Position numbers and translations under genes: made by a program
DNA from: Clostridia bacterium
Lineage (GTDB): Bacteria; Bacillota; Clostridia; UBA1212; UBA1255
Direction of reading: 5' to 3'
DNA length: 56,395 nucleotides
Assembly: GCA_016287565.1 (NCBI GenBank)
Contig: JAEFAM010000007.1
Coordinates: 1 to 56,395 of the forward strand
The notes under the pieces: model-generated
Told to the model about the DNA's origin: nothing
Databases searched by the model: none
The model's input: the letters and a program-made list of their open reading frames with translations, nothing else
In this document: positions 8,990 to 51,518 of the stretch, in pieces
Numbering within the stretch: the stretch's first letter is position 1
Layout of the letters: each line of letters begins with the position of its first letter

Positions 8990-9120
8990 CTTCACTCGGC
9001 GCAGCCGAATTTAGCTGCTCGCCCCGCGAGCAATTTAGCTCGCGTGCAAGCGCGAATTTAGCTGAACACTGACAATTTTGCCCAAACCGTCAGTGTTCAA
9101 TTTCGCTGCAGCAACGCTGC
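8990..9120 (+). repeat. Hairpin array with AATTTAGCT linker
   Basis: Five palindromic segments (CGGC-GCA-GCCG; GCTCG-CGAGC; CGCG-CGCG; a 10-bp stem GAACACTGAC/GTCAGTGTTC with a 15-base loop; GCAGC-AAC-GCTGC) are separated by AATTTAGCT, or once AATTTCGCT. The block runs straight into the AATATCACT array, so two linker families abut. Confidence 0.85.
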
Positions 9121-9480
9121 AATATCACTCCGCGCAGCGGAATATCACTCGCCGTCAGTGCGAATATCACTGCGCGTCATACGCGCAATATCACTCGTGC
9201 CTCAGCACGAATCTCACTCGCCGCCAGGCGAATATCACTGCGCTCCGTCGCTCAACATCACTCGTGTGCCAGGCGAATATCACTCCGCGCACCGGAATAT
9301 CACTCGCCGTCAGGCGAATATCACTGCGCGTCATACGCGCAATATCACTCGTGCCTCAGCACGAATCTCACTCGCCGCCAGGCGAATATCACTCCGCGCA
9401 GCGGAATATCACTCGCCGTCAGGCGAAGATCACTGCGCTCCGTCGCTCAACATCACTCGTGTGCCAGGCGAATATCACCC
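9119..9480 (+). repeat. Hairpin array with AATATCACT linker (array 2)
   Basis: About sixteen short stem-loops, for example CCGC-GCA-GCGG, CGCC-GTCA-GGCG, GCGCGT-CAT-ACGCGC and CGTGC-CTCA-GCACG, alternate with AATATCACT, with occasional AATCTCACT, AACATCACT or AAGATCACT. A run of consecutive hairpins is partly duplicated in order, which suggests block amplification. The array ends about 50 bases upstream of the recA -35 box. Reading frames through it are repeat artefacts. Confidence 0.92.
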
Positions 9481-9501
9481 CCCCTTCTTGACTCTCGCCA
9501 G

Positions 9502-41464: not shown

Positions 41465-43879
41465 TCAGCCCGTCACGTAGCGCTTGATGTTGGAGGCGTT
41501 GACGATCTTCTGGATCGAGGGGCCTTCGGCAACGATGAGCGTGGGCGCCTGCTTTACGCCGTATTTCATGGTGAGATCCGGATTTTCCTCGGCGTCGATC
41601 ACTTCGTAAACGATGCCGGCGTTGTCCAGGATTGTCTTTGCCATGCGGCAGTTGGGGCAGGTCTTGGTGGCGAAGAGCAGAAGCTTTCTGCCGCTCTCGT
41701 TGGCCTGCCTGGCCGCTTCCGTGGCTTTCTCCACGACCGCCTGAGCGGCTTCCGTGTCGCAGCAGGAGGCTCCGTCGACGATCACCTGGCCGTTCCTCTT
41801 AAGTTTGGAATGAGGGATGTCGTACAGGCGGCGGTCCTTGAACTCCTGGGTCTTGCCGGCGTTCCAGTTGGAAACGGGACGGTAGTAACCGGTGATGCGG
41901 CTGTACACTTCCGTGACTTCTCCGCAGTGAGGGCAGCGGTCCTGCTCGCCGGTGAGGTATCCGTGCTTGCGGCATATGGAATACGTAGGCGACATGGTGT
42001 AGTAGGGAAGCTTGTAGTTCTCGGCGATCTTGCGCACCAGGTTCGCCGCGGACTGCCAGCCGGGGAGCTTCTCGCCCAGGAAGGCGTGGAACACGGTGCC
42101 GGAGGTGTACAGAGTCTGGAGCTCGTCCTGGATGTCAAGGGCGTCGAATATGTCGGAAGTGAAGCTGACGGGCAGGTGGGAGCTGTTGGTGTAGTAAGGC
42201 GTTCCGCAATCTCCGCCGGCAGTGATGATGTCGGGGTACCTGGCCACGTCGTGCTTGGCAAGCCTGTAGCTGGTGGACTCGGCGGGAGTGGCTTCCAGGT
42301 TGTACAGGTCTCCGTACTTCTCCTGATAGTCGGAGAGGCGGTTCCTCATATGATTCAGCACGTCCTTCGTGAACTCCTGGGCCTCTTTATGGGTCAGGTC
42401 CTGCTTCAGCCAGGCGGCGTTCAGGCAGGCTTCGTTCATGCCCACGAGGCCGATGGTGGAGAAGTGGTTGTCGAAGGTGCCCAGATATCTCTTGGTGTAG
42501 GGATAGAGGCCTTCGTTCAGGAGCTTGGTGATGATGGTGCGCTTGATCTTAAGGGACCTGGCGGCAACGTCCATCATATGGTCGAGCCTGCGGTAGAACT
42601 CCTCGGGAGTCTTGGACAGGTACGCGATGCGCGGCATATTGATGGTGACAACGCCGATGGAACCGGTACTCTCGCCGCTTCCGAAGAAGCCGCCGGACTT
42701 TTTGCGGAGCTCTCTGAGGTCGAGGCGGAGGCGGCAGCACATTGACCTGACGTCGCTGGGCTCCATATCGCTGTTGATATAGTTGGAGAAGTAGGGGGTG
42801 CCGTATTTAGCCGTCATCTCGAAGAGAAGGCGGTTGTTCTCGGTGTCGGACCAGTCGAAGTCTCTGGTGATGGAGTAGGTGGGGATGGGGTACTGGAAGC
42901 CGCGGCCGTTGGCGTCGCCTTCGATCATGATCTCGATGAAGGCCTTGTTGACCATATCCATCTCTTCCTTGCAGTCCTTGTACTTGTAGGGCATCTCTTT
43001 TCCGCCCACGATGCAGTTGAGCTCGGCCAGGTCGTTTGGCACGGTCCAGTCGAGAGTGATGTTGGAGAAGGGAGCCTGGGTGCCCCAGCGGCTGGGGGTG
43101 TTGACGCCGAAAATGAAGGACTCGATGCACTTCTTAACGTCGCGGTAGGAGAGGTTGTCCGCCTTTACGAAGGGGGCGAGGTAGGTGTCGAAGGAGGAGA
43201 ACGCCTGGGCGCCGGCCCATTCGTTCTGCATGATGCCCAGGAAGTTGACCATCTGGTTGCAGAGGGTGGCCAGGTGGCTGGCGGGAGAGGAAGTGATCTT
43301 TCCGGGGATGCCGCCCAGGCCTTCCTGGATGAGCTGCTTCAGAGACCAGCCGGCGCAGTAGCCGGTGAGCATGGCCAGATCGTGAAGGTGCAGATCCGCG
43401 TTCTTATGGGCGTTGGCGATCTCTTCGTCGTATATCTCGCTGAGCCAGTAGTTGGCGGTGATGGCGCCGGAATTGTGGAGGATAAGGCCGCCGACGGAAT
43501 AGGTGACGGTGGAGTTCTCCTTAACGCGCCAGTCGATGGACTGGACGTAGTTGTCGACCAGTTCCTTATAGTCAAGGATGGTGGACTTCATGTTGCGGAG
43601 TTTTTCGCGCTGCTTGCGGTACAGAATGTACGCTTTGGCCACGTCCGCGTAACCGGCCTGGACGAGCACGGTCTCCACGCTGTCCTGGATATCTTCAACC
43701 GCGATGAGGCCGTCTTTGATCTTCGGCTCGTATTCGGCGGTGACTTTCAGAGCCAGCAGGTCGATTATGCTGGCGTTATACTGTCTGTCGACGGCGTCGA
43801 AGGCGCGGGTGATGGCGTTGCTGATCTTGCTGAGATTGAATTCCGAGACTTTTCCGTCTCTCTTTAGTACCTGATACAT
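41465..43879 (-). CDS. nrdD: Anaerobic ribonucleoside-triphosphate reductase with C-terminal glutaredoxin-like domain
   Basis: This class III reductase makes deoxynucleotides without oxygen using a glycyl radical. The 804-residue protein has an N-terminal ATP-cone (about 1-95) and the barrel core. The zinc site includes CPHCG, and the glycyl-radical segment is SRITGYYRPV with Gly664. The core normally ends about 20-50 residues after this glycine. Here it is followed by a further ~75-residue redox domain with Cys741-Pro-Asn-Cys744 (LLLFATKTCPNCRMAKTIL ... GVKQAPTLIV), a glutaredoxin/thioredoxin fold with its cis-proline. An additional Cys-Cys pair lies at about 706-707. GGGAGTG precedes the ATG. 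Tandem NrdR boxes lie upstream. Confidence 0.95.
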   Translation of the reverse strand: MYQVLKRDGKVSEFNLSKISNAITRAFDAVDRQYNASIIDLLALKVTAEYEPKIKDGLIAVEDIQDSVETVLVQAGYADVAKAYILYRKQREKLRNMKSTILDYKELVDNYVQSIDWRVKENSTVTYSVGGLILHNSGAITANYWLSEIYDEEIANAHKNADLHLHDLAMLTGYCAGWSLKQLIQEGLGGIPGKITSSPASHLATLCNQMVNFLGIMQNEWAGAQAFSSFDTYLAPFVKADNLSYRDVKKCIESFIFGVNTPSRWGTQAPFSNITLDWTVPNDLAELNCIVGGKEMPYKYKDCKEEMDMVNKAFIEIMIEGDANGRGFQYPIPTYSITRDFDWSDTENNRLLFEMTAKYGTPYFSNYINSDMEPSDVRSMCCRLRLDLRELRKKSGGFFGSGESTGSIGVVTINMPRIAYLSKTPEEFYRRLDHMMDVAARSLKIKRTIITKLLNEGLYPYTKRYLGTFDNHFSTIGLVGMNEACLNAAWLKQDLTHKEAQEFTKDVLNHMRNRLSDYQEKYGDLYNLEATPAESTSYRLAKHDVARYPDIITAGGDCGTPYYTNSSHLPVSFTSDIFDALDIQDELQTLYTSGTVFHAFLGEKLPGWQSAANLVRKIAENYKLPYYTMSPTYSICRKHGYLTGEQDRCPHCGEVTEVYSRITGYYRPVSNWNAGKTQEFKDRRLYDIPHSKLKRNGQVIVDGASCCDTEAAQAVVEKATEAARQANESGRKLLLFATKTCPNCRMAKTILDNAGIVYEVIDAEENPDLTMKYGVKQAPTLIVAEGPSIQKIVNASNIKRYVTG

Positions 43880-44404: not shown

Positions 44405-45199
44405 ATGATTATTACATATAGTTATTCGACCAAATGTTCAGAAGGTATGTTAAGATATTTGAATCAAAGGGGCATACCATTCAAGGAAGTGTATGGACAT
44501 CTTATTTTTGATGATGTTCTTAACTACGAAACAGTAGATGAACCATCTTTAAAAAGCGTGACGCGACTGAATGTCAACATCGAATATTCCGCAGAAGAAA
44601 TAAATAATGCGTTATTTTTTTTGGTTCAGGTCGCCCCGAAAAACGCTTTGCTGATAGATGACTTTGGCAATAAAACCTATAAATACAGTAACCATTCAAG
44701 AAGTCAAGTGGGTCCATTTAAGATAACTCGAATCTATAAGAAAAAGTGTTTAGTTGGCGTACAGCAAGATATGAGTGTAATGTTCTGTAACAAAGAACTG
44801 AAAAATATTTTGGAAGATATATCCATCGACTTTTCGTTTTGTGTTGTGGAAGGTGCAAACAACACAGAAAGAGATGATTTGTTTCAGGTTGAATCTAAGA
44901 ATCAAATACCAACAGAGTTGATAAACGTTAACTGTGATATAATAGGTGAAGATAATATTTTCAGGGCAAACAAAGTTGTTTATGATGACTGTGTTAAAAT
45001 ATGTCCCAGATTTCCAAACGTTTATGTTCCCGAACTGAACTATGCCGATATAAAAAACTATGAAGTGTTTACTACCGGTCACTGTTTCGGAAGCGGTTTT
45101 GGATACAAGATGCTTTTTTGCTCATCTCGTGTTTTTAAAAAGCTCAAAGAAACAAAGTTTTTTAAAGAGTTTAGTTTTAAACCAGTTACGTTAACGTAA
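44405..45199 (+). CDS. Unknown AT-rich orphan protein
   Basis: I do not recognise this 264-residue protein. It has no signal peptide or membrane segment and is rich in Asn, Lys, Phe and Val. The C-terminal third contains several Cys residues (CVKICPRF, GHCFGSGFGYKMLFCSSRVFKKL). Codon use is strongly AT-biased, unlike all neighbours, and it sits on the opposite strand between nrdD and nrdG, so it was probably acquired by transfer. It has its own promoter and ribosome site, which argues that it is expressed. An immunity or contact-system remnant is one possibility; nothing in the sequence proves it. Confidence 0.75.
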   Translation: MIITYSYSTKCSEGMLRYLNQRGIPFKEVYGHLIFDDVLNYETVDEPSLKSVTRLNVNIEYSAEEINNALFFLVQVAPKNALLIDDFGNKTYKYSNHSRSQVGPFKITRIYKKKCLVGVQQDMSVMFCNKELKNILEDISIDFSFCVVEGANNTERDDLFQVESKNQIPTELINVNCDIIGEDNIFRANKVVYDDCVKICPRFPNVYVPELNYADIKNYEVFTTGHCFGSGFGYKMLFCSSRVFKKLKETKFFKEFSFKPVTLT

Positions 45200-46035: not shown

Positions 46036-46056
46036 AACTACGTAAACGGCGTAGTT
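46036..46056. promoter_or_regulatory. Inverted repeat upstream of nrdG
   Basis: AACTACG (46036-46042) and CGTAGTT (46050-46056) form a perfect dyad with a 7-base spacer. It is next to an AT-rich patch with TTGACA on the plus strand (46064) and on the minus strand (46102-46097). It could be an operator in a divergent nrdG / dockerin-gene control region. It does not resemble an NrdR box. Confidence 0.4.
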
Positions 46057-46222
46057 AAGAGTCTTGACATATATGTTATAATTATACTGGCTCTTTGTCA
46101 ATCCCGGGCGCCTGCCTCCGGAAACGCCCTTTTCGAAACGGCGCGCGGTCAACGGCATTTGACGAACACGGAAGCATTTTTACAGAAACAGAAGATAAAG
46201 CCCCCGACGGGAGAAAGCTCAG

Positions 46223-48487
46223 ATGTATATCCGCAAAAGGCAGCCAGGAGAACGTTGTCCGGCGCCGCCAAGGGTCGTAAAGACCGGGCGGCAGGGGAGT
46301 TTTGCGGCTGTTTTTGCCTGTACGGCGGTCGTCGTCGCGGCATTGACGGCGGCGGTGCTCGCCGCTGCGCTGTTCGGCGGAGCTTTCGGCGGCGCAGGCA
46401 ACAGCGCTTCCCGTGTCCTGGCAGCGGGCAAATTAAAATCCGTCAGCTGCTTCGATCCCGTTTATTATTCCGAAAACGACGAAGTCACCGCCTCGGCGGA
46501 CGCGGCGTCATACAATTACTATTCCGATCTGCGCGCCTCATACGGCCTGGACGCCTGCGACAACAGCAGCGCGCTTTCCGGCCTGGCTTCCTACGCCGCC
46601 ATCTCGGCAGTCTCCGGAGACGTGCCCGTGTCCGGGGCCTCTGCTGCCCAGGCCAGATCCGCCTCCGCAGGTTCCGCCATATCCTCCTCGGCAGGGAGCG
46701 TCAGCGGCGTTAACGGGTTCGTCTTCAAATATTTCACGGACTTTTCGATTACCGACGCCGGAAGAGCGGCGGAGGCCTTTATAGGCTCTCTTATGAATAC
46801 GGACAGCAGCCGCACCGTGCTGCTCTCTTCCATAAAAAGCTGCGGCATGGCTTCTGCCATCAGAGTCACGGAATACGGCACCGAATGCTGCTTCGTATTT
46901 TTCTATTCCACGGAACGGCTTTCTTCCGGCGCATCCCAGACCATAACGGGGATGCTGCCCGCCGTAAAGAGCGTTTCAGGAGACCTGCCCGCAGAATTGG
47001 CTTCAGGCGCCGCGGGAGAACTCACCGTAAAGAAGGGCGCGACGGTTACCGAAAACATGCTGAAAGACGCCTGCGGCGTCAATGACCTTCGCGGCCGTCC
47101 TGTTTCCGTGAGCTTTGCCGGTTCAGGTGTCGATACTTCCGCCGCGGGCACGGCGACGGTCAACGTGTCGTTGTCCTCCGGGGGCCGCAGCGTGGGTTCG
47201 TACGTGACGCTGAACGTGCTTGAAAACGTGGCTCCGGCATTGCCCGAAAACGCGGTGAAGTTTTACGGCGTGCCTGACGGCGAGATATTGAACGTGCAGC
47301 CTCAGACGCCTTTCGCAGGCAGCGGCACCAAAGGGCTCGTTACCTCTCCCGCGCTGGTGGGAAGCGGCGATACGGGCAGCTTCAGCCAGGCGAGAGTGTT
47401 CATAAAAGACGCCTCGGGCAGCGTATTTACGGGGACCGTGGCTTTCGAATCCGGCGGGACCGAATACGCCGCGGCGGAGCTTGTCACCACGGACCTTAAA
47501 GGGTTGACGGTCAGGACTCCGGGAGGAGCGGCGCTCAAGGCCGGGGGGCAGGCGGTATTGCGGCTACAGACCAGCTCGGTAGACATACCCAAACCGGGAA
47601 GCGGCTCGGGCTCCGGAGGCGCCTCGGGAGCGGTTAAGATACGGTACACTTACGAGCTTCCGGGAGGGAAGAAACTGACTCTGGTCAAGGCAGATCCGAC
47701 TGCGGTATGGAACCCGGAGGTCAAGGGCGTTTACAGGATCACGGCGGAAGTTATCGACGGATCCGGTGCGGTGATCTACTCCGCTTCGGTGAAGATAGAT
47801 GTGGCAAAAAAGGACGAAGTGGGATATAATGACCCGGGTACCGAGCCTACCGCATCGCCCGCCGCATCGCCTACCGCGTTGCCCCCGCCGGTGCCTACGG
47901 CTGTGCCCACCACTGCGCCTACCGCTGTGCCAACTACTGCGCCCACGACCGTGCCTACCACGGTGCCTACGACCGCGCCCACGACTGCGCCTGCCACTGA
48001 GCCCACGACCGGACCTACCGCAGGGCCTGCCGACGGACCGGAACTGACGTTCCTTTCGGAGAAACTCCGTACCGAAGAGACCTCCTCCGGCATCGTCCTG
48101 ATCAGGGGCATAGGCGCTGATACTTCCGTAGCGTCGTTGTCCGAGCTGCTGGCGGTCACGGGAGGCGGGAACGGCTCGCTGACCGTGGTCAAAGCCGACG
48201 GCACTCTTCAGGGGAACGACGCGGCCGTTGCCACCGGCAACAAGATCCTGCTGATCAGCGGCGGAAACGTGGTCTCCGAATATACCGTGGTGATAAGCGG
48301 CGACGTCAACGGCGACGGACAGGTGGGAATAGGCGATTTCGCCAAGATGAGGCAGCAGCTTCTGAAGGGCGGCATCATCGTCGAGATATACGTTTACGCC
48401 GGAGACCTGAATGGCGACGGAGAGCTTGGAATAGGAGATTTCGCGAAACTGCGTCAATATCTCCTTGGTAAGATAAAGTTAGACTGA
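46223..48487 (+). CDS. Exported protein with CAP-like domain and C-terminal type I dockerin
   Basis: The 754-residue protein has a long hydrophobic N-terminal signal or anchor (about 25-60) and a degenerate CAP/SCP-like domain (about 93-232: NYYSDLRASYGL..., then FIGSLMNTDSSRTVLLSSIKSCGMASAI..., ...CFVFFYS). Ig-like segments and a Pro/Thr linker (about 536-606) follow. The dockerin (about 690-752) has two Ca-binding loops, DVNGDGQVGIGD and DLNGDGELGIGD. Each is followed by a nearly identical F-A-K-M/L-R-Q-Q/Y-L-L helix, so two-way binding is possible. A cohesin-domain gene follows within 20 bases and is the natural partner. GGGAGAAAG precedes the ATG. Confidence 0.85.
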   Translation: MYIRKRQPGERCPAPPRVVKTGRQGSFAAVFACTAVVVAALTAAVLAAALFGGAFGGAGNSASRVLAAGKLKSVSCFDPVYYSENDEVTASADAASYNYYSDLRASYGLDACDNSSALSGLASYAAISAVSGDVPVSGASAAQARSASAGSAISSSAGSVSGVNGFVFKYFTDFSITDAGRAAEAFIGSLMNTDSSRTVLLSSIKSCGMASAIRVTEYGTECCFVFFYSTERLSSGASQTITGMLPAVKSVSGDLPAELASGAAGELTVKKGATVTENMLKDACGVNDLRGRPVSVSFAGSGVDTSAAGTATVNVSLSSGGRSVGSYVTLNVLENVAPALPENAVKFYGVPDGEILNVQPQTPFAGSGTKGLVTSPALVGSGDTGSFSQARVFIKDASGSVFTGTVAFESGGTEYAAAELVTTDLKGLTVRTPGGAALKAGGQAVLRLQTSSVDIPKPGSGSGSGGASGAVKIRYTYELPGGKKLTLVKADPTAVWNPEVKGVYRITAEVIDGSGAVIYSASVKIDVAKKDEVGYNDPGTEPTASPAASPTALPPPVPTAVPTTAPTAVPTTAPTTVPTTVPTTAPTTAPATEPTTGPTAGPADGPELTFLSEKLRTEETSSGIVLIRGIGADTSVASLSELLAVTGGGNGSLTVVKADGTLQGNDAAVATGNKILLISGGNVVSEYTVVISGDVNGDGQVGIGDFAKMRQQLLKGGIIVEIYVYAGDLNGDGELGIGDFAKLRQYLLGKIKLD

Positions 48488-48505
48488 CGTACCGGAGCGG
48501 ACCGA

Positions 48506-50635
48506 ATGTTTAAGAAAGAGAATGAAGGAAAAAAGAATATTCGTTTCGGAAGCAGATCCCTTTTCGTTGCCGTTTTCGCCGTGATCGCCGCCGCGCTGAC
48601 AGCTGTGCTGACGCTGGGGGGCCCGGCCAACGTTTCTACGGTACGGGCGGAGAACAGGGCGTATTTCGAATTGTCCACCGACGAGATCGAGCCTGGCGGG
48701 ACCTTCGTATTGACCCTGAAATACCAGTGCGACGTGGAAGTCACGGGCAGCCTGATAACGGTGGAATTCGGTTCGAAAGTCGAATACGTGGGCAGCGACA
48801 AATCTGGCATGCTGGCGGATACGGTCTCCTGGTCCCAGGACGTTCCGGGCCTTGTGACAGTGCTCCAGGCAGACGGCAACGGCACCGGTTCGGGCACTCT
48901 TTGCAAGATAACCCTGAAGGTGGCGGACGGCAGCCCCAGGGACGAAACGGAGACAATCAAGGCCACGCTCAGGCAATATTCCGACGAGAATTACGACGAG
49001 TTCAAGCCCGATACTGTTTATTCTAAAAAGCTTTACATTCCGCCGAAGCCTACGGAGAAACCTACCGCCACGCCTTCTCCCACGCCTTCGCCTACACCGA
49101 CGCCTACGGAGAAGCCTACTGCGACTCCTTCGCCTACGCCAACGAAGACGCCGGACCCCACGCGAACTCCCACGGCCACTCCGGACGTTACGCCTTCGCC
49201 TGAACCTACAGAGTACGCTGCGGAAACGCCGGACGCGCCTCCCACGGATGACGTTACGGATGATCCTTCTTCCGCGCCATATACAGGGGAGCCTACGGAG
49301 CCCGCAAGCCCCGGAGCTTCTTCGGACGTCACTTTCGACCCCTCCGCCTCTCCCGATACCACCGAGCCCGTCACGTCAGGAGCTCCCGAAACGGGAGACC
49401 CCTACGGCTCTTCCGGGCCCGTCGTTTCTGCCACGCCCGGCGGCCAGACGGACAATGAACTGCCTACGGCTCAGGTGACGCCCGGCAATGACGCCGCCAC
49501 CGATCCCGGCGAAAAGACCGTCAACGGCGATGAGGACGATGAATTCCTGTTCTCAGTCAAATCGGTAATACTCTGGATATTCGCGGCGGTGTTCGTGGGC
49601 ATCTGGACCGGCATAGCCGTCGGATATCTTATCTGGGGCAGAAACCGCAAAAAGAAAAACGGGGAAGCCGGGACAGGCGGAAAAGACGTATTCACCGATC
49701 TCATAATCATAATTCTGTGCGCTTCTATGCTGTTCGCGGCAGGGCGCGCCGGCCTGAAACTGTTGCCTGAAAAGAGCGGCGTTTACGCGGCGGAGCCCGG
49801 GGAAGCTTCAGACACTTCCGACCCATCGGAACTCGAAACAAAGGCTCCCGCGGAGCCTGACGACACTCCCGGAACGCCTGAGGAAACGCCGGACCAGGCC
49901 ACTGACGTGCCCGAGACCGACGCTCCCGCCACCGAGACCCCGCCTGCAGATACCGAAGTTCCTGCCACTGACGCGCCCGAAACGGAGGCGCCCACCGACG
50001 TTCCCGCTACGGACGTGCCGGCCACCGGCGAGCCTGCTACCGAAACTCCCGATGTCACCGACGGACCTGCCACAGACGAGCCTACGCCGGGCGAACCAAC
50101 TCCGGACGTGACCGAAACGCCCGAAAATACGGACGTGCCGGAAGAGACGGAGACTCCCGAGGCGCCCACTGCCACGCCCGAAATAACGGACGTGCCGACG
50201 CCGTCGCCCACGAGAACGCCTTATCCCACCAGGACTCCCACCGAGGTCCCGGAAGCCACCACGCCTCCCACGCTGGGGAAATTGACGCCGCCGCCCGTAA
50301 GCGGTTCCGCCGCCAGAGTGACCGAGACGGGAGGGCAGGATATCGACGCCACCGACGCGCCAGCCACCGGAACGAGGGCGGACAATATTGCCGCGCTGGA
50401 AGAGAATACCACATACCGGCTTTCGGATTTCATTCAGACGCTGTGCTACATCGCCTACGGCCTGGCCGGGCTGCTCCTGCTGATCGGGCTGATCAGGATA
50501 ATCTGGCTGCTGGTCTTTAAGAAGGATATTGTGCCTCCCGCGGAAGACGGCGAAAAGACGAAGAAGAAAAAAGGCAAGCTGAACAAGGACGTAAAGGCGG
50601 GAGACGTTGACGTGAAGCAGGACAACTGGTCCTGA
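48506..50635 (+). CDS. Multi-pass membrane protein with extracellular cohesin-like domain
   Basis: The 709-residue protein has a signal peptide (about 1-48), a cohesin-like beta-sandwich (about 49-178: RAYFELSTDEIEPGGTFVLTLKY, ITVEFGSKVEYVGSDKSG, DGNGTGSGTLCKITLKV), a Thr/Pro linker (180-340), membrane helices near 350-372 and 396-416 joined by a basic cytoplasmic loop (RNRKKK), a second Thr/Pro/Asp segment (425-615), a third helix (640-670) and a Lys-rich cytoplasmic tail. The topology places both linkers outside. Cellulosome anchoring proteins use SLH or sortase anchors; a three-helix anchor with a cytoplasmic tail is unusual. The dockerin gene immediately upstream suggests a dedicated pair. 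Confidence 0.8.
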   Translation: MFKKENEGKKNIRFGSRSLFVAVFAVIAAALTAVLTLGGPANVSTVRAENRAYFELSTDEIEPGGTFVLTLKYQCDVEVTGSLITVEFGSKVEYVGSDKSGMLADTVSWSQDVPGLVTVLQADGNGTGSGTLCKITLKVADGSPRDETETIKATLRQYSDENYDEFKPDTVYSKKLYIPPKPTEKPTATPSPTPSPTPTPTEKPTATPSPTPTKTPDPTRTPTATPDVTPSPEPTEYAAETPDAPPTDDVTDDPSSAPYTGEPTEPASPGASSDVTFDPSASPDTTEPVTSGAPETGDPYGSSGPVVSATPGGQTDNELPTAQVTPGNDAATDPGEKTVNGDEDDEFLFSVKSVILWIFAAVFVGIWTGIAVGYLIWGRNRKKKNGEAGTGGKDVFTDLIIIILCASMLFAAGRAGLKLLPEKSGVYAAEPGEASDTSDPSELETKAPAEPDDTPGTPEETPDQATDVPETDAPATETPPADTEVPATDAPETEAPTDVPATDVPATGEPATETPDVTDGPATDEPTPGEPTPDVTETPENTDVPEETETPEAPTATPEITDVPTPSPTRTPYPTRTPTEVPEATTPPTLGKLTPPPVSGSAARVTETGGQDIDATDAPATGTRADNIAALEENTTYRLSDFIQTLCYIAYGLAGLLLLIGLIRIIWLLVFKKDIVPPAEDGEKTKKKKGKLNKDVKAGDVDVKQDNWS

Positions 50636-50651: not shown

Positions 50652-51518
50652 ATGTTCTGGTACGTTTTTATAATCGTTATCTGCTCCCTTATCATAATAG
50701 GGTCAATAGTTTTAAGAAGGATGCGGCTGCGTGCCGGAGAACTGCTGATGGTGGAAACGGCTTTTCCGTCGAAGGCAGGGGAAGGCGGCGCGGCCCGTTT
50801 CTGTTTCATTTCCGACCTGCACATTTCTATGATGCCCGTGAAATGGGGCGCCATCCTGGACGCCGTGAAGGAGTCCGGCGGAAAATTCCTGCTCATAACT
50901 GGAGACCTGGTCAATAAGATCTCCGAATTCGAACTGGCGAAGCAATTCATCATGACGATGACAATGGGCGCCGGCATCCCGGTGATCATCACCATGGGCA
51001 ACCACGACAACGACGCCGCGGAGGCTTTTCCCGGGGGCAGGGACGCGTTCATGGCAGAATTGAAAGCGCTTCCCGGAGACGTGCGCGTACTGGACGACGA
51101 GTATACGGTCGTTGACGGCGTGATGGTCGGAGGCCTCAACGACTTCCATTACAGCGACCGCGACCGACGGGAACTGATAAAAGAATGGGAAGGGATCGCG
51201 GCCTCGAAAGGGCTCGAACTGTTCATTGCCACCCACAACGCGGACGTGCTGCTGGAACTGGGAGAAGACGAAGAACTGAGCCGGGGCGTTGCCGGAGTGC
51301 TCGCGGGCCACACCCACGGCGGCCAGATGAAAATGTTCCGCAAGCTGGAATTCTCGGTGCTGAAAAAGGACAAACTGCCCCGTCAGGGCATATACTACGG
51401 CAGGCACCTCGTCAACGGTTACGAACTGTATATCACCTCCGGCGTAGGCTGCTCCCTGGGTCCCTGGAGATCGGGCACGAATCCCGAAGTGGTGGTTGTA
51501 ATTTCGGCTCCGATGTGA
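50652..51518 (+). CDS. YkuE-type membrane-associated metallophosphoesterase
   Basis: The 288-residue protein has one N-terminal membrane segment (about 2-22) and a calcineurin-like phosphoesterase domain with all metal motifs: ISDLHIS, TGDLVNK, TMGNHDND, ATHNADV and LAGHTHGGQ. Similar proteins act at the membrane on phospholipid-like or nucleotide substrates; the substrate is unknown. It follows the cohesin gene by 16 bases. The codon usage and linker style match the host, with no sign of transfer. Confidence 0.85.
   Translation: MFWYVFIIVICSLIIIGSIVLRRMRLRAGELLMVETAFPSKAGEGGAARFCFISDLHISMMPVKWGAILDAVKESGGKFLLITGDLVNKISEFELAKQFIMTMTMGAGIPVIITMGNHDNDAAEAFPGGRDAFMAELKALPGDVRVLDDEYTVVDGVMVGGLNDFHYSDRDRRELIKEWEGIAASKGLELFIATHNADVLLELGEDEELSRGVAGVLAGHTHGGQMKMFRKLEFSVLKKDKLPRQGIYYGRHLVNGYELYITSGVGCSLGPWRSGTNPEVVVVISAPM

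Follow-up and report, generated by a model that had tools for sequence, protein, structure and literature searches.

Pairs of cohesins and dockerins outside cellulosomes have been recognised for years, and their roles are mostly obscure. Cellulosomal type I pairs, e.g. A. cellulolyticus ScaB-Cel5 (5nrm/5nrk) and C. thermocellum 2ccl, combine a type I dockerin with duplicated calcium loops and a cohesin fold. The same two modules occur in the locus described here, an operon encoding a dockerin protein (DOC), a cohesin membrane protein (COH), a further membrane protein (X) and a metallophosphoesterase (MPE). In contrast to the cellulosomal pairs, one dockerin and one cohesin are present, there is no glycosidase, no CBM or SLH was detected on the pair, and the anchor is transmembrane.

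PMC9012536, citing Peer 2009 and others, describes non-cellulosomal cohesins and dockerins as widespread in Archaea and Bacteria, with binding by the archaeal ones, and a cohesin-dockerin pair of A. fulgidus is treated in PMC9705933. A. fulgidus 2xdh and C. perfringens 2jh2 and 2vo8 are cohesins outside cellulosomes, as is COH, and are among its closest folds. The structure titles assign C. perfringens 2vo8 and 2w1n to glycoside hydrolases, whereas the cohesin of COH sits on a transmembrane protein. The locus further differs from the non-cellulosomal cases in that the dockerin is carried by a CAP/Ig protein and the operon includes X and MPE. Listed in PMC11557425 are 'NonSLH-anchoring' proteins (Lachnoclostridium MSJ-17, H. 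luporum, C. cibarium) that, like COH, have one cohesin and a C-terminal transmembrane helix; for these, partners are either unclear or numerous (as many as 39 dockerin proteins in MSJ-17), whereas COH has a single adjacent partner and is fused to X.

The initial annotation of this DNA regarded the pair as an undescribed protein system. This was overstated, as pairs outside cellulosomes are known (PMC9012536, PMC9705933) and single-cohesin transmembrane proteins have been listed (PMC11557425). The part that may be new is the composition of the DOC-COH-X-MPE operon, of which a search of openly licensed papers returned no description; none of these papers was found to combine cohesin and dockerin with 'CAP domain' or 'metallophosphoesterase'.

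Organisation of the locus

The window, i.e. the whole stretch of 56,395 nucleotides that was analysed, belongs to an uncultured gut/rumen clostridium (assembly 2.65 Mb, 95.9% complete). DOC and COH are open frames with an 18-nt gap between them, and gene-order comparison shows the order DOC-COH-X-MPE to be conserved in three families of the order. Features of the operon, in window coordinates, are as follows.

46055..46082 (+): promoter-like site ahead of the operon, TTAAGA-16-TATAAT with TG before the -10 (by consensus match alone)
46223..48487 (+): DOC, secreted protein of 754 aa with CAP, Ig-like and dockerin domains (ORF, Pfam, predicted fold)
46304..46360 (+): hydrophobic signal/transmembrane segment of DOC, aa 28-46 (hydropathy)
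46472..46915 (+): degenerate CAP/SCP-fold domain of DOC (predicted fold; no histidine in the window protein)
46988..47815 (+): Ig/FN3-like beta domains of DOC (model; second domain well predicted, first less so)
47816..48031 (+): disordered Pro/Thr/Ala-rich linker of DOC, among the aligned species in the host species only
48041..48289 (+): small beta module of DOC ahead of the dockerin (model)
48299..48466 (+): type I dockerin of DOC with two near-identical calcium loops, GDVNGDGQVGIGDFAKMRQ and GDLNGDGELGIGDFAKLRQ (Pfam, alignment, structure match)
48506..50635 (+): COH-X fusion, cohesin membrane protein joined to X, 709 aa (ORF, hydropathy, comparison with relatives)
48560..48646 (+): signal peptide region of COH (hydropathy), plausible VRA/A cleavage site at its end (by eye)
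48647..49039 (+): cohesin domain of COH, nine-strand sandwich (Pfam, model, structure matches)
49565..49621 (+): TM1 of COH (VILWIFAAVFVGIWTGIAV), then WGRNRKKK (hydropathy; conserved tail of COH in the family)
49688..49744 (+): TM2 of COH-X (hydropathy), followed by the signal-peptidase-like site VYA/AE
49793..50425 (+): X ectodomain, rich in Pro/Thr (translation)
50462..50518 (+): TM3 of X (LAGLLLLIGLIRIIWLLVF) (hydropathy, comparison with relatives)
50531..50632 (+): Lys-rich tail of X (translation), predicted from the positive-inside rule to be cytoplasmic
50652..51518 (+): MPE, calcineurin-like metallophosphoesterase with a membrane anchor (Pfam; motifs DLH, GDLV, GNHD, GHTH)

The dockerin protein

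The dockerin of DOC is a type I dockerin, with two calcium-binding loops with helices (Dockerin_1 PF00404, E 1.3e-9, 38.5 bits against a cut-off of 22.9). Structure comparison places it next to 5nrk_B (Z 11.9, 48% identity), and it matches 5nrm_B with E 1.3e-12. Between the two loops 17 of 24 residues are identical, and both are intact; in this the domain is like dual-mode dockerins, whose calcium loops are likewise near-identical.

Pfam detected the dockerin alone on DOC and did not detect CAP, and Ig arrays dominate the Foldseek comparison of the full model with the PDB. The CAP match came from VIA, in which the predicted fold of the region resembles 4ifa (Z 13.6, 2.2 A, 118 residues), Borrelia BB0689 (4d53, Z 13.3) and GAPR-1 (5vhg, Z 12.7), all consistent with the alpha-beta-alpha CAP fold. 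Structural matches were also obtained for the predicted Ig/FN3-like domains. The two conserved histidines of the CAP tetrad are absent, no histidine occurs anywhere in DOC, and the CAP regions of its relatives have no histidine in common; the usual CAP active site is therefore absent. BB0689, which we take to be without this active site, similarly has the CAP fold without the catalytic signature, whereas the CAP domain of DOC is joined to Ig-like domains and a dockerin.

The cohesin membrane protein, X and MPE

By hydropathy COH has a signal peptide region and three further hydrophobic helices; it also carries a single cohesin and a Pro/Thr stalk. Its cohesin (PF00963, cut-off 24.1) scores 24.7 bits in a six-frame genome search and 20.2 bits on the ORF; borderline by Pfam alone, its identity is secured by the predicted structure, a nine-strand cohesin jelly roll with pLDDT of about 85-98 over the domain. 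Structurally the domain is closest to cohesins (Foldseek best E 4.2e-8), with C. perfringens modules at the top; in VIA, 2jh2 gives Z 15.2 (2.1 A over 122 residues) and A. fulgidus 2xdh Z 13.1. Dockerin and cohesin folded as one read-through chain gave a dockerin pLDDT of about 60 or below and no interface or pose.

X is a Pro/Thr-rich membrane protein encoded by a separate gene in relatives. The C-terminal part of COH in the host genus, comprising TM2, the Pro/Thr-rich region, TM3 and the Lys-rich tail, corresponds to X of these relatives. In the five genomes of the genus with the fused protein, as well as in the G001 fragment, a signal-peptidase-like A-x-A site comes after TM2, which looks like the former signal peptide of X. 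The fusion is a Rosetta-stone link between COH and X.

The initial annotation described a CAP-like and Ig-like protein ending in a type I dockerin with two nearly identical calcium loops, and, 18 bases downstream, a gene for a cohesin-like domain on a three-helix membrane protein. The ORFs, their spacing and all of these domains were recovered. The helices are present too; the 'three-helix' protein is, however, the product of the fusion of COH and X in the host genus, two proteins with separate genes in related genera.

MPE is a calcineurin-like phosphoesterase (PF00149, 49.5 bits against a cut-off of 21.5) that carries the metal-site motifs. Its best NCBIfam relatives are the YaeI / LpxG metallophosphoesterases, yet it falls far below their equivalog cut-offs (34.7 against 188 and 29.2 against 350), and a PDB sequence search gave no relative at E 0.01. 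A single N-terminal hydrophobic segment with a basic cluster immediately after it suggests that MPE probably faces the cytoplasm.

Conservation in relatives

DOC immediately precedes COH, in the same orientation, in four genomes of the genus (G002, G004, G005, G006) and in three from other genera of the same family (G008, G009, G011). The N-terminal part of DOC in G005 lies on a separate contig, and DOC and COH-X of G001 are at two contig ends. Exactly one dockerin and one cohesin are present in each of G005 and G009. X is encoded separately in G008, G009 and G011, between COH and MPE with no gene intervening on either side, and in G008 all four genes overlap or nearly touch, with gaps of -4, -4 and -4 at the three junctions (4-nt overlaps). 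A profile of the CAP/Ig part detected DOC in 13 of 31 genomes of the order, from three families, and in none of the 245 sampled class genomes searched outside it. The relatives that carry a name are assemblies from rumen and gut metagenomes, among them one labelled Mageeibacillus sp. UBA1255.

In a third family (G019) the order is DOC, a COH-like protein, X and MPE; the membrane tail is retained in the COH-like protein, whose N-terminal domain has diverged too far to be recognised by the local cohesin profile. In a second family (G017) DOC and COH are followed by a ThuA-like gene and then by X and MPE. The ThuA-like gene, recognised by eye (L053 9660-10361), lies between COH and X in an operon that is otherwise kept.

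In genus g2 (L149, L150, L151, L152, L153) a three-gene set, A-X-MPE, is found. A and COH have the membrane tail in common (GLWVGxxxGYxLWGRYKTKK), and one domain of A looks, by eye, like the second domain of the cohesin protein in G008. No cohesin was detected in A and no dockerin gene is beside the set, so X-MPE can exist without the clasp. Among ten genomes, dockerin and cohesin distances correlate (r 0.73), falling to a partial correlation of 0.43 once MPE is taken into account; shared ancestry thus accounts for much of the correlation.

Cohesins and dockerins of the host genome

A search of the whole assembly, the missing few percent of which may hide a dockerin, found one Pfam cohesin over the cut-off and one full-strength dockerin, and these two are adjacent. 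No dockerin was found on any glycoside hydrolase in the 95.9% complete assembly, the sole full-strength dockerin being that of the CAP/Ig protein. A scaffoldin with two or more cohesins was likewise not found, the second cohesin match being at 13.9 bits, below the cut-off. The genome thus has a cohesin and a dockerin without cellulosomal enzymes, i.e. a non-cellulosomal system.

Two weak matches in the same genome were set aside: on C85 no cohesin is evident in the ORF, and on C71 the match is to a transglutaminase-like protein with one calcium motif. The match of C122 to COH is mainly over the signal peptide region. A protein-pattern scan of the genome contigs with full COH gave nothing; the dockerin profile did give matches.

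The interpretation given in the initial annotation is thus partly supported: neither partner carries a glycosidase, no cellulosomal enzyme set was found in the assembly, and the gene pair recurs, the adjacency of DOC and COH being kept in three families of the order. X, the metallophosphoesterase and the fusion of COH with X had been missed.

Proposed function and alternatives

The analysis directly establishes which domains are present, how the genes are ordered and that this order is conserved, that COH and X are fused, and that hardly any other dockerins or cohesins occur in the genome. The clasp of the cellulose-degrading machine has probably been reused here as a one-to-one cell-surface tether. 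DOC would be secreted, and its C-terminal dockerin would clasp the single cohesin of COH with calcium, COH presumably being anchored in the membrane and carrying its cohesin on a Pro/Thr-rich stalk. A non-enzymatic CAP/Ig-like head would in this way be displayed at the cell surface one-to-one, instead of on a many-enzyme scaffold. From the fusion and gene order, X may be another stalked membrane protein belonging to this complex. MPE would be a phosphoesterase located at the inner side of that membrane, with an envelope or lipid-linked phosphate substrate, and gene order suggests that its activity is probably tied to the complex. We infer that X and MPE are functionally linked to DOC-COH, and a four-component surface module, DOC-COH-X-MPE, including a one-to-one clasp and a linked phosphoesterase, is given a probability of about one half.

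MPE may also be merely a neighbour. A passive tether, in which DOC docks to COH as a surface adhesin or a cell-wall/lipid-binding head and X and MPE are merely co-transcribed, is possible, with appreciably lower probability than the four-component module. The CAP and Ig-like heads without catalytic signature, the Pro/Thr stalks and the occurrence of A-X-MPE without a dockerin are consistent with it, as are loci with other heads. Elsewhere in the order, directly upstream of genes for single-cohesin transmembrane proteins, are an LRR/BspA dockerin gene in G018, SH3 plus cadherin-like dockerin genes in G016, G023 and G024, and a DUF5050 dockerin gene in G016; no X or MPE was seen beside these loci, which makes the clasp by itself look like a tether that can be reused. 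The arrangement is not universal: numerous cohesin genes of the order lack an adjacent dockerin gene, and of the loci read outside the order only that of G056 shows it, with a purple-acid-phosphatase-like partner. Against a passive tether stand the conserved linkage of X and MPE in three families, the 4-nt overlaps and the COH-X fusion.

A more doubtful extension of the four-component module is transmembrane sensing, in which docking of DOC on the cohesin would be relayed via cytoplasmic basic segments of COH-X to membrane-bound MPE. If this were so, cohesin-dockerin binding would be a signalling contact.

It is unlikely that the cohesin anchors a wider dockerin set as a minimal or relict cellulosome-like scaffold. 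Such a set would include a 2126-aa subtilisin-type (S8) protein, in which a relaxed search found a dockerin-like match (17.3 bits; 23.6 with neighbours) at C127:6409-6555 (L142 459-6839), a segment that the cohesin might bind as a second ligand. Orthologues of this protein in G002, G004 and G006 have higher dockerin scores, and dockerins are more numerous in some relatives (10 in G007, 8 in G014). The S8 segment is, however, internal, diverged and missed by the local dockerin profile, and the host genome has only one cohesin and no glycoside hydrolase dockerin. Least probable of all is a vestigial or misdirected pair that no longer binds, to which the borderline Pfam score of the cohesin and the fast sequence divergence of COH (identities of 22-50% within the family) might point, as the calcium-ligand (D/N) and helix positions of the dockerin are invariant in an alignment of nine species and DOC and COH are kept together across families.

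With a single pair in a compact conserved operon, the role of a non-cellulosomal clasp becomes directly testable: one dockerin, one cohesin and defined neighbours. The COH-X fusion and the phosphoesterase provide concrete hypotheses on clasp function, and the pair could be usable as an orthogonal protein clasp if dockerin and cohesin bind.

Other features of the window

Upstream of the operon, positions 41465-43879 (-) encode an anaerobic ribonucleotide reductase NrdD with a fused C-terminal glutaredoxin/thioredoxin-like domain (Pfam). A 264-aa ORF at 44405-45199 (+), without a Pfam match, lies between NrdD and a radical-SAM (NrdG-like) gene. Short ORFs at 1-405 and 9078-9491 both contain repeated 'ITRPSGRISLR / ANITRR'-like peptides, which suggests a repeated DNA element rather than a gene.
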